The notes beneath the pieces are model-generated. The model worked only from the letters and a program-made list of their open reading frames with translations. It did not search any database and was not told the origin of the DNA. A program made the position numbers and the translations under genes. A stretch of DNA of 56,866 nucleotides, taken from the NCBI RefSeq assembly GCF_017551775.1, contig NZ_JAFZKX010000070.1, forward strand, positions 1 through 56,866, written 5' to 3'. Positions 4,550 to 9,113 of this stretch are shown here, one piece after another. This DNA is from Fibrobacter sp. GTDB taxonomy: Bacteria > Fibrobacterota > Fibrobacteria > Fibrobacterales > Fibrobacteraceae. Positions within the stretch are counted from its first letter, which is position 1, and each line of letters begins with the position of its first letter.

Positions 4550-5005
4550 TTACTCGTTTGTCATTTTGGCTTTGCGGATGATGGGGTAGGAGATGTCCTC
4601 TTCCCCCTCTTCCACGACATAGTCGAAGTCGCCGGTAATGGTGATTTCGGTGCCTTCGTCGGGGAATTCGTCTGGGTACTTATGGGGTTTCTCGAGCTCG
4701 AACGCGAGCCCCTGCGAACAGCAGGCGAGCGCATCCGCGATAACGCAACCGAAGAACCGCGTTTTGGTGGCGTCGTCGTAGTAACTCGAAAAGACGCCTT
4801 TCATCTTGATGCGCTTCCCGACGTATTTGCCGGGATGCATTACCATTTGGTAAACCTGCGCATAGACCATGGTGCCGCTCATGCGGGTGAGGTCGATATC
4901 TACGGGCCTCGCGAAAGTCTGCGCTGCAAGTGCGAAAATAGCCAGGAATGCGATTGCCTTGGCTTGGATATGTTTGTACAATCTAGTTACCGCCGTTTCG
5001 TGCAA
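4550..5005 (-). CDS. Exported OB-fold-like protein associated with the zinc transporter
   Basis: The 151-residue product has a signal peptide (about residues 1-32, ending QTFA). The mature part reads as a compact beta domain: TMVYAQVYQMVMHPGKYVGK, then IKMKGVFSSY, a cysteine-containing FFGCVIADALACCSQG, and GTEITITGDFDYV. That pattern is what one expects of an OB fold. Proteins of this kind occur, to my recollection, next to zinc ABC transporters in gut Firmicutes, but I cannot name a characterised member. The gene overlaps the 3' end of the permease gene by 23 bp, so translation is probably coupled. The three conserved-looking Cys could bind metal. Function is unknown. Confidence 0.7.
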   Translation of the reverse strand: MHETAVTRLYKHIQAKAIAFLAIFALAAQTFARPVDIDLTRMSGTMVYAQVYQMVMHPGKYVGKRIKMKGVFSSYYDDATKTRFFGCVIADALACCSQGLAFELEKPHKYPDEFPDEGTEITITGDFDYVVEEGEEDISYPIIRKAKMTNE

Positions 5006-5834
5006 TGCCTATCAAATAGAACAGGCCGAATGCTACGATATCCGCCGCCACGATGGTGGAACCCACGGGGGTCCCTGCGAGAATGGCAATCACGATGCCG
5101 ATGAGCGAGCAGATTACCGAGATGGTCGCTGCCGCGATTGTCACCGAGAAGAAACTCTTGAATGTACGCATGGCCGAAAGCGCCGGGAAAACCACGAGGG
5201 CCGACACCAGGAGGGCGCCCACAAGGTTCATGGCGAGCACGATGATGACGGCAACGATGACCGCGATTAACAGGTTGAAAATCGTGGTGTTGACGCCCGT
5301 GGCGCGTGCGAAATTCTCGTCGAAGGTGATGGTGAATATCTTGTTGTAGAACAGTATAAAGCAGAAGATGACTATGCAAGAAAGTACGATGCACAGGTAG
5401 ACTTCTTCCGCCTTCAAAGTGAGAATCGATGTGGAACCGAAAAGCGTGGTGCAAACGTCGCCCGAGATGTTCGCCGACGTCGAGAAAATGTTCATCAGCA
5501 GATAACCGATGGCGAGCGCCCCGACCGACACCATGGCGACTGCGGCGTCACCCTTGATGCGTGCGTTTTTCCCGGTGCAGAGCAGCAGTACGGCGACGGC
5601 TATGGTCACGGGCAGAATCAGCAGCATGTTGTTCGAAAGCTTCAACACCGATGCGATGGCGAGCGCGCCGAAGGCCACGTGCGAAAGGCCGTCACCGATA
5701 TAGGAGTAGCGCTTGAGTACGAGCGTCACGCCCAGGAGCGACGAACAGAGTGAAACGAGCACGCCCACGATAATCGCATAGCGCACGAAGGGAAAGTCCA
5801 TATAGAACGAGAGCTTTTCGATAAGTTCCGGCAT
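4983..5834 (-). CDS. znuB: Zinc/manganese ABC transporter permease (ZnuB type)
   Basis: This 283-residue integral membrane protein belongs to the ABC-3 family, with about eight or nine hydrophobic helices. The N-terminal part carries GVTLVLKRYSYIGDGLSHVA, matching the conserved cytoplasmic loop of ZnuB/MntB permeases with the typical G-D-x-L-S-H-x-A motif. The C-terminal half has the GALLVSALVVFPALSA segment common in the family. It forms the inner-membrane channel and pairs with the ATPase encoded one nucleotide upstream. The His-rich binding protein upstream and the Zur-type repressor point to zinc rather than manganese, by inference. Confidence 0.92.
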   Translation of the reverse strand: MPELIEKLSFYMDFPFVRYAIIVGVLVSLCSSLLGVTLVLKRYSYIGDGLSHVAFGALAIASVLKLSNNMLLILPVTIAVAVLLLCTGKNARIKGDAAVAMVSVGALAIGYLLMNIFSTSANISGDVCTTLFGSTSILTLKAEEVYLCIVLSCIVIFCFILFYNKIFTITFDENFARATGVNTTIFNLLIAVIVAVIIVLAMNLVGALLVSALVVFPALSAMRTFKSFFSVTIAAATISVICSLIGIVIAILAGTPVGSTIVAADIVAFGLFYLIGIARNGGN

Positions 5835-5835
5835 G

Positions 5836-6492
5836 TTATTTCCCCTTCACGGAAATCTGGTCGAAGTTCATGACGCGAGTGGCGTCGCCCAGGGCGGAAT
5901 CCACGTCGTGGGTCACCATCACGATGGTCATTCCCTTCTTGTGCAGGTCCTTGATGACGCGGTACATCGTTTCCGAAGATTCGGGATCGAGGCCGGTGAC
6001 GGGTTCATCGAGGAGGAGCAGACGCTCTGCGGCACAGAGGGCCCGGGCCAAAAGCACGCGCTGCTTTTGCCCCCCCGAAAGTTCGCGGAAGCACGACTTG
6101 CGCAAACTTTCGGTGCGGGTCAGCGCCATGCATTCCATGGCGCGGTCCCGCTGGGCCCGTCCATAAAACGGGAGCAGGCGGTGCTTGCCTTGGAATGCCG
6201 ACAGCACGATCTCTTCGACAGATGCCGGAAAATCCTTCTGAACTACCGTCATCTGTGGCAGGTAACCGATTTCACTGCGCTTCAGGCCATCGCAGAACTC
6301 GATGCTGCCCGATTTGGGCGAAAGCAGGCCGGCGATTCCGCGGAGGAACGTCGTCTTGCCGGATCCGTTGCGGCCGATGATGCAGAGGTAATCCTCCACG
6401 TTCACTTCGTAGTCCATATCGCGGATTAGGTCCTTGCTTCCGTAGCCGAGGGTCAGCTGGCGGCATTTGATCAGAGGGATTAGTTCGTTCAT
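5836..6492 (-). CDS. znuC: Zinc ABC transporter ATP-binding protein (ZnuC type)
   Basis: The 218-residue ATPase has Walker A GRNGSGKT, a Q-loop around YLPQ, the signature LSGGQKQR, Walker B LLLLDEPVTGLD and the H-loop VTHD, so all catalytic elements are intact. It powers the ZnuB-type permease encoded immediately downstream (one nucleotide gap). The length is normal for this subfamily. The stop codon of this gene and the start of znuB nearly touch, a sign of coupled translation in one mRNA. Confidence 0.92.
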   Translation of the reverse strand: MNELIPLIKCRQLTLGYGSKDLIRDMDYEVNVEDYLCIIGRNGSGKTTFLRGIAGLLSPKSGSIEFCDGLKRSEIGYLPQMTVVQKDFPASVEEIVLSAFQGKHRLLPFYGRAQRDRAMECMALTRTESLRKSCFRELSGGQKQRVLLARALCAAERLLLLDEPVTGLDPESSETMYRVIKDLHKKGMTIVMVTHDVDSALGDATRVMNFDQISVKGK

Positions 6493-7737: not shown

Positions 7738-8004
7738 TCAATTCAGCAACAGGACTTTTTGCGAAACGAGGGTGGAGGTCCGCGTTTCCGGGAACTTGAC
7801 GCGGGGTAGCCTGAAGAAGACTCCGCTCAGGGCGAGCTCGAAAGGCTCGACGACCAGTTCCATGCAAACCGAAATAAGCTCGAGGCAGCGGTGTATGTGG
7901 TGGCAAACATGGCAGTGTTCGCCATGGCAATGGTGTTCCAGGTGCCGCGACACGTAAAGCGATGCGAGTACCACCAGCAATCTGCCGAACAATGCCTTAA
8001 CCAT
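7738..8004 (-). CDS. Small His/Cys-rich membrane-anchored protein next to zur
   Basis: The 88-residue protein has an N-terminal hydrophobic segment (about 7-19) followed by a very dense metal-binding cluster, HLEHHCHGEHCHVCHHIHRC, with four Cys and eight His in 20 residues. The rest is not recognisable. Its start overlaps the 3' end of the Zur-like gene by 8 bp. It has the same length and architecture as the mini-protein at 4276-4542 and both lie in the zinc locus. Short proteins with similar HxxHxCxGxxCxxC clusters are, as I recall, common in Firmicutes and often misnamed as regulators. A zinc-buffering or transfer role is plausible but untested. Confidence 0.65.
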   Translation of the reverse strand: MVKALFGRLLVVLASLYVSRHLEHHCHGEHCHVCHHIHRCLELISVCMELVVEPFELALSGVFFRLPRVKFPETRTSTLVSQKVLLLN

Positions 8005-8461: not shown

Positions 8462-8486
8462 GAATTTGCAATTCATTCGCAAATTC
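8462..8486. promoter_or_regulatory. Candidate Zur operator
   Basis: Perfect 8-nt arms GAATTTGC (8462-8469) and GCAAATTC (8479-8486) flank a 9-nt spacer that continues the symmetry in part, giving a 25-nt near-palindrome. Its size and central TA-rich character resemble known Fur/Zur boxes. It directly touches the -10 box of the zur promoter and covers the predicted start site, the ideal place for repression. Confidence 0.7.
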
Positions 8487-8487
8487 A

Positions 8488-8516
8488 AATATAGCATAAA
8501 AAAGCCGCCGCGTCAA
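8488..8516 (-). promoter_or_regulatory. Promoter of the zur-znu operon
   Basis: On the minus strand TTGACG (8511-8516), a 17-nt spacer and TATATT (8488-8493) form a near-consensus sigma-70 promoter. The -35 box overlaps the loop of the mntP terminator hairpin, and the spacer contains its T-run. The operator palindrome begins immediately after the -10 box. Confidence 0.7.
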
Positions 8517-8524
8517 TGCGGCGG
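8497..8524 (-). terminator. Rho-independent terminator of mntP
   Basis: Seven G-C pairs, CCGCCGC (8505-8511) and GCGGCGG (8518-8524), surround a 6-nt loop. On the minus strand six T follow at once. It lies 25 nt beyond the mntP stop and shares bases with the zur promoter. Confidence 0.85.
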
Positions 8525-8549
8525 ATGGCCCGTTTCGGGTGAAAAACGG

Positions 8550-9113
8550 CTAAAACAGCATTTTTACGCCGATGCCGATGAGGATTACGCCCGCGAAAAT
8601 TTCGGGAATTTTCGTCTTGAAGCGCTTGGCGGTATGCCGGCCGATTTCGTACCCGATAACGCCCATGGCGAAACTTGCAAATGCGATTGCGGAGGTGGCG
8701 AGCACCATGTTCGCGTTTATGAAGGCGAAGGAGATTCCTACGGCGAAGGCGTCGATGCTTGTCGCGACCGAGAGGAGCAGGATGTTTGTTATGGTGAGGT
8801 TCTTGGCCGCAATTTCTTCACCTTCCTTTTCTCCGGCGTCCCCGCGTACGGCGCCCCATATCATGCGGAGCCCGAGGACGCAGAGGATGGTGCAGGCGAT
8901 GGGCGTGGCTACAGAACTGAACCAGCGTTCGGCGAAACTCCCGAGAAAGTACCCGATGAGCGTCATGCCGCCCTGGAAAACGCCGAAACTGACTGCCTGG
9001 AGCATTGCCCGGCTATAACGGATGCCCGACTTGGAGAGCCCCGTGGCGATGGCGACCGCGAAGCAGTCCATGGCTTCGACGATTGCGACTATTATTATTT
9101 CTATGATGCCCAT
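8550..9113 (-). CDS. mntP: Manganese efflux pump MntP
   Basis: The 187-residue protein has six predicted membrane helices in two homologous halves, each with an acidic motif in the first helix: EAMDCFAVAIATG near the N-terminus and ATSIDAFAVGISF at about residue 120. This duplicated D-x-F/A-A-V pattern is typical of MntP (formerly YebN, DUF204). MntP exports Mn(II) from the cytoplasm to avoid toxicity. A short charged cytoplasmic loop (GDAGEKEGEE) separates the halves. It lies upstream of the zinc locus on the same strand but has its own terminator. I looked for a manganese riboswitch in the leader and see no room for one. Confidence 0.9.
   Translation of the reverse strand: MGIIEIIIVAIVEAMDCFAVAIATGLSKSGIRYSRAMLQAVSFGVFQGGMTLIGYFLGSFAERWFSSVATPIACTILCVLGLRMIWGAVRGDAGEKEGEEIAAKNLTITNILLLSVATSIDAFAVGISFAFINANMVLATSAIAFASFAMGVIGYEIGRHTAKRFKTKIPEIFAGVILIGIGVKMLF

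Follow-up and report, generated by a model that had tools for sequence, protein, structure and literature searches.

The region at positions 8462-8516 of a Fibrobacter contig (NZ_JAFZKX010000070.1), where a gene for manganese export ends and an operon for zinc uptake begins, raises the question whether the promoter of the second operon is built into the terminator of the first and, if so, whether this arrangement links the transport of the two metals. Positions refer to the whole stretch of 56,866 nucleotides, here called the window. Downstream of mntP, the co-directional genes on the minus strand are, in order, zur, an open reading frame (ORF) of 88 codons, znuA, znuC, and znuB (Table 1). Homologues of the 88-aa product lie between zur and znuA elsewhere in the genus; searches of Pfam and NCBIfam gave no match. 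The product contains HHCHGEHCHVCHH and is possibly a small metal-binding protein.

Table 1. Coordinates of the features in and around the mntP-zur intergenic region, in window positions.
Feature	Position	Strand	Basis and remarks
znuB, permease	4983..5834	-	profile match
znuC, ABC ATPase	5836..6492	-	profile match
znuA, long His-rich loop	6566..7654	-	PF01297, 203 bits
88-aa His/Cys-rich ORF (HHCHGEHCHVCHH)	7738..8004	-	start overlaps zur end
Fur-family regulator gene, called zur, 141 aa	7997..8422	-	PF01475, 52.8 bits; best solved relatives are Zur
Operator palindrome GAATTTGCGAATGAATTGCAAATTC, 25 nt	8462..8486	-	Fur-family 7-1-7 type; sequence and scan
Operator 19-nt core	8465-8483	-	within 25-nt palindrome
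-10 box TATATT	8488..8493	-	sequence and scan
-35 box TTGACG	8511..8516	-	5 of 6 bases in terminator loop
mntP intrinsic terminator	8498..8524	-	7-bp G+C stem, loop ATTGAC, C then T6; fold and covariation
Second, weaker hairpin	8530..8549	-	between mntP stop and terminator; folding
mntP, manganese efflux pump family	8550..9113	-	PF02659, 126.8 bits

A scan of the minus strand recovered the promoter TTGACG-17-TATATT at 8516-8488, with 10 of 12 positions matched and a TG ahead of the -10 box. A single T (8487) separates this box from a palindrome written GAATTTGC-gaatgaatt-GCAAATTC (8486-8462), within which the predicted transcription start falls. The palindrome follows the Fur-family 7-1-7 pattern TTTGCRAATNATTYGCAAA, and its inverted repeat TGCGAAT-G-AATTGCA (8467-8481) overlaps the core promoter. 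At up to three mismatches, the operator core occurred once in the window, against 0.18 occurrences expected. Within the Fur family, known half-sites are TGATAAT for Fur, TCGTAAT for Bacillus subtilis Zur, and TTATAAT for PerR; the Fibrobacter box shares with Fur-family boxes generally the 7-1-7 inverted repeat and the AAT-N-ATT centre and differs from them in its TGCRAAT half-site.

The operator is conserved in other members of the genus. Initial whole-genome searches of 37 genomes from the genus detected close orthologues of zur in about 20 of them, and 29 distinct zur upstream regions were read. In nearly all of these, a palindrome lies at the -10 box or at most 7 nt from it: its core starts 4-5 nt past the -10 box in most promoters; in the nine where it starts 1-2 nt inside the -10 box, operator and box are fused. 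The genus consensus, AATTTGCRAATNATTYGCAAATT, has the 7-1-7 form of Fur-family boxes, and its core positions T2-T3-G4, A7-A8, and G15-C16-A17 were invariant among the 29 promoters. The boxes carried at most two mismatches in 27 of 29 cases, and the proximal box of L015 has four when read by eye; the scripted survey mispicked this box, as well as the -10 box of L005. A second, upstream box, often TTTGACAATCATTTGCAAA, which contains the -35 sequence TTGACA, was present in 12 of the 29 promoters. Several of these upstream boxes span TTGACA and resemble the double Zur boxes that cover the -35 and -10 regions of the Streptomyces coelicolor znuA and B. subtilis yciC promoters (PMC6103462). Known Zur systems further resemble the Fibrobacter locus in the association of a Fur-family repressor gene with znuABC and in a palindrome, 7-1-7 or of 23 bp, placed over the core promoter (PMC6103462). 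The Fibrobacter system differs from them in its half-site TTTGCRAAT, in the position of the box at the predicted +1 directly after the -10 box, in a sensory site that lacks the HxH cluster, and in that the box was found at no other zinc gene of the genome. The pattern TTTGCRAATNATTYGCAAA provides a testable zinc-regulator operator for the genus, for which a literature search found none. In G026, G033, and G084 (L053, L072, L107), the operator has at its centre an ATG that shares the reading frame of zur (in G084, ATG ATT TGC AAA TTA GAA TAC AAG), which suggests a very short or absent leader in these species.

Proceeding from mntP towards the regulator gene, the intergenic region contains the weak hairpin, the strong hairpin followed by C and T6, the promoter, one base, and the palindrome. 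The strong hairpin, CCGCCGC-ATTGAC-GCGGCGG (8524-8505; folding energy -14.7 kcal/mol, z -3.1), begins 25 nt past the mntP stop codon (8552-8550) and, with the T6 at 8503-8498, forms the G+C-rich hairpin and U-tract of an intrinsic terminator. The loop supplies the TTGAC of the -35 box, the final G of which opens the 3' arm, and the T-run sits in the promoter spacer, so that the terminator of one operon and the promoter of the next have bases in common. The initial annotation had described a TTGACG-17-TATATT promoter with its -35 box in the loop of the mntP terminator, a palindrome directly following the -10 box, and the use of the same bases for mntP termination and zur initiation. This description is real and correct to within one base: the promoter lies on the minus strand as given, one T intervenes before the palindrome, five of the six -35 bases (TTGAC) are in the loop, with the sixth in the 3' arm, and hairpin and -35 box overlap in sequence.

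Comparison with two close relatives of the genome under study (G000) bears on both functions of the shared bases. A C-G pair of the stem is replaced by A-U in G034 and a G-C pair by G-U in G079, with the stem kept, and the loop ATTGAC and the hexamer TTGACG are invariant in all three species. Variation of the stem around an unchanged ATTGAC/TTGACG is the pattern expected if terminator and -35 functions are both maintained. Although this covariation comes from three species, which are few, it indicates, together with the retained TTGAC loop, that the overlap of promoter and terminator is genuine. A -35 box inside a terminator hairpin was found once, at the zur locus itself, in 366 kb of the genome sampled as stretches. 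In this sample, strong terminators numbered 81, against about 17 in shuffled sequence, and promoter-like sites 41, against about 33; shuffling was done simply, by permutation of dinucleotide blocks. Statements on the whole genome are based on pattern searches and on this sample.

With a probability of about 80%, region 8462-8516 is the promoter-operator of an autorepressed zinc-uptake operon, whose overlap with the terminator arose by compaction and is mainly insulating, with any effect of mntP being incidental. According to this proposal, a sigma-70-type promoter would initiate transcription within the Fur-family palindrome, and the metal-loaded regulator, the product of the first gene, would bind the palindrome and block RNA polymerase. 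The operon (zur, the 88-aa ORF, znuA, znuC, and znuB) would thereby be repressed by its own product until zinc falls, in a loop of negative autoregulation. In G000 and its two close relatives, the promoter and the intrinsic terminator of the co-directional mntP gene would have merged, such that the terminator loop provides the -35 box and the U-tract falls in the spacer. This merger most likely arose as a short intergenic region was compacted and, provided that the hairpin terminates efficiently, would mainly shield the repressed operon from mntP read-through. The neighbourhood of zur is conserved to a limited extent and varies between lineages. In G012, G033, and G026, the terminators of other neighbours end just upstream of the -35 box. 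In G023, the upstream neighbour is a glucokinase-like gene, assigned by a match over residues 22-77, which were read from L005, whereas the first ~20 residues of the query did not come from the sequence; here a second, weaker overlap places TTGAAA-16-TATCTT within GGGGCTT-GAA-AAGCCCC. These varied neighbours, nearby terminators, and the G023 overlap fit compaction beside a promoter-operator that travels with zur. Against the proposal count the missing HxH cluster and PerR-leaning family scores of the regulator, the three boxes away from zinc genes, the restriction of the covariation to three species, and the retention of the box in species that lack zur.

The first two of these points concern the identity of the regulator. 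Its FUR domain scored well above the PF01475 cut-off of 23.1 bits, and Foldseek matched its model to Fur-family structures. The CxxC pairs of the structural zinc site (C82/C85 and C122/C125) were invariant among 21 aligned sequences, as were C74, H79, and H90. By sequence, its closest solved relatives are structures of S. coelicolor Zur (3mwm, 7vo0), and Foldseek ranked Mycobacterium tuberculosis and S. coelicolor Zur first for a model of middling confidence; the top PDB and Foldseek matches included 3mwm, 7vo0, and 2o03. Where known Zur proteins have an HxH cluster in the sensory site, this regulator has K77-M78-H79, and the mean pLDDT of the model (70.9) is too weak for placing sensory-site ligands. 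The best NCBIfam scores were obtained with PerR models and lay far below their cut-offs. From the znuABC genes, the Cys/His sites, and the fold match, we infer that the regulator is a Zur. The gene forms an operon with znuACB, with the box at the operon promoter, which makes zinc its likeliest metal. Accordingly worded, the 'Zur-type operator' of the initial annotation stands as a Fur-family operator at the zur-znu promoter that is conserved in the genus, with zinc as the probable specificity.

The genome's only other Fur-family gene (G000:C36:5294-5701, L105) lies upstream of a gene for a CobW/COG0523 GTPase, and an analogous box, TTTGATAATGGTTATCAAA, is fused to its own -10 box; the departure from the zur box is mainly at the two positions that follow TTTG in each half-site. 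Since COG0523 proteins include a zinc-linked subset (PMC2770081), the second Fur-family protein is another candidate zinc regulator. A close zur is missing from two species, G014 and G004, and in G069 and G071 the znu operon lacks it. All four (L046, L050, L108, L109) keep promoter and box upstream of znuA and its preceding 88-aa ORF, with one of the operator's half-sites altered to TCTC, so another protein may use the box there. An alternative to the proposed zinc autoregulation is that zinc is not the metal sensed by the regulator, or that the second Fur-family protein is the main zinc regulator. The atypical sensory site, the lean towards PerR models, the presence of just two Fur-family genes, one of them beside the COG0523 GTPase, and the box retained before znuA in G014 and G004 would be consistent with this alternative. 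It is nevertheless considered unlikely, because zur opens a znuABC operon whose ZnuA is His-rich, Zur structures ranked first in both sequence and fold searches, and the box of the second protein differs in its half-site letters.

The overlap could also have been selected as a link between the metals, as the initial annotation had envisaged: transcription of mntP under manganese excess would occlude or feed the zur-znu promoter and so couple manganese export to zinc import. Terminator and promoter physically share bases, and the overlap is retained in three species with compensating changes in the stem. RNA polymerase may, moreover, remain on DNA after termination and restart nearby (PMC6978322), and at tufB-secE of Salmonella an inter-operon overlap of terminator and promoter is reported to have a measured regulatory and fitness effect (Brandis et al., 2019, as cited in PMC7055797). 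The mntP-zur overlap is like that of tufB-secE in the bases common to the upstream terminator and the next promoter; it differs in showing no sign of co-regulation and in not being an ancient conserved gene pair. Among 30 mntP loci read, mntP was directly upstream of zur in three (G000, G079, and G034), and zur has other neighbours in other lineages. An Rfam search of the window found no manganese riboswitch at threshold and matched only a tRNA. By eye, no motif was common to the upstream regions of mntP orthologues, which differ, as do their neighbours. The weaker overlap in G023, independent and next to another gene, suggests that compaction suffices. A selected link is therefore very unlikely: coupling is possible, but no sign of selection for it was seen, and the proposed connection between manganese export and zinc import was not supported. 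Overlaps of terminator and promoter between operons are of an already published kind, and the present arrangement is local to three closely related species. Within the proposal of compaction, the zur-mntP locus clearly illustrates how a promoter can merge with the terminator of a neighbour.

The genome search for further operators, which the initial annotation had proposed to look for before other zinc genes, found none there. With up to two mismatches, the pattern gave four matches in the genome and none for a reversed control. All four had at most one mismatch, none had exactly two, and those with three resembled background. Unexpectedly, the near-perfect copies other than that at zur all lie within coding sequence: in hemC (G000:C76:25999-26017, L031), in a GCS2-like gene (G000:C27:6524-6542, L033), and at the 5' end of yraN (G000:C92:31004-31022, L032; also L110-L113 and L165-L171). 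They occupy two different reading frames, and the hemC and GCS2 copies translate as FANDSQI/FANESQI. The yraN copy was present in seven species, in one of them (G088) with a single change. In the six species compared, synonymous differences at identical residues amounted to 0 of 90 within the copy and to 34% over the remainder of the gene, and just 2 of 150 windows were as low; these values point to conservation at the DNA level. Synonymous change was 16% in the hemC copy against 37% elsewhere in the gene and 15% against 32% for GCS2, but equally low values occurred in 24 of 291 and 51 of 400 windows, respectively, and selection on these two copies was judged unconvincing; only yraN stands out.

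It is tentatively conceivable, although doubtful, that the 23-25 bp operator also works inside genes, with the copies in yraN, hemC, and the GCS2-like gene bound by the zinc regulator and held at the DNA level, or that it spread through coding sequence as a miniature palindromic element. These copies offer a way to ask whether Fur-family sites within genes act or merely spread. Rickettsia palindromic elements, like the Fibrobacter copies, are palindromes that lie within coding sequences and are read in more than one frame; this is a resemblance only, as the Fibrobacter copies are very few, about 25 bp long, and tied to an operator. That the palindrome at zur is itself a copy of such a dispersed repeat, with its promoter position secondary, is most improbable, since, despite the near-perfect copies in two frames of hemC, the GCS2-like gene, and the 5' end of yraN, almost every zur promoter across the genus has the box at near-fixed spacing, the other copies are few (three in the genome) and lineage-limited, and the GCS2 copy entails no change in length relative to its relatives. 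In related species, FANDSQI-type segments were also observed in variable linkers of other proteins (L186, L187, L191, L195), and G083 and G084 (L192, L194) carry a related palindrome a short distance upstream of a gltB-like gene.
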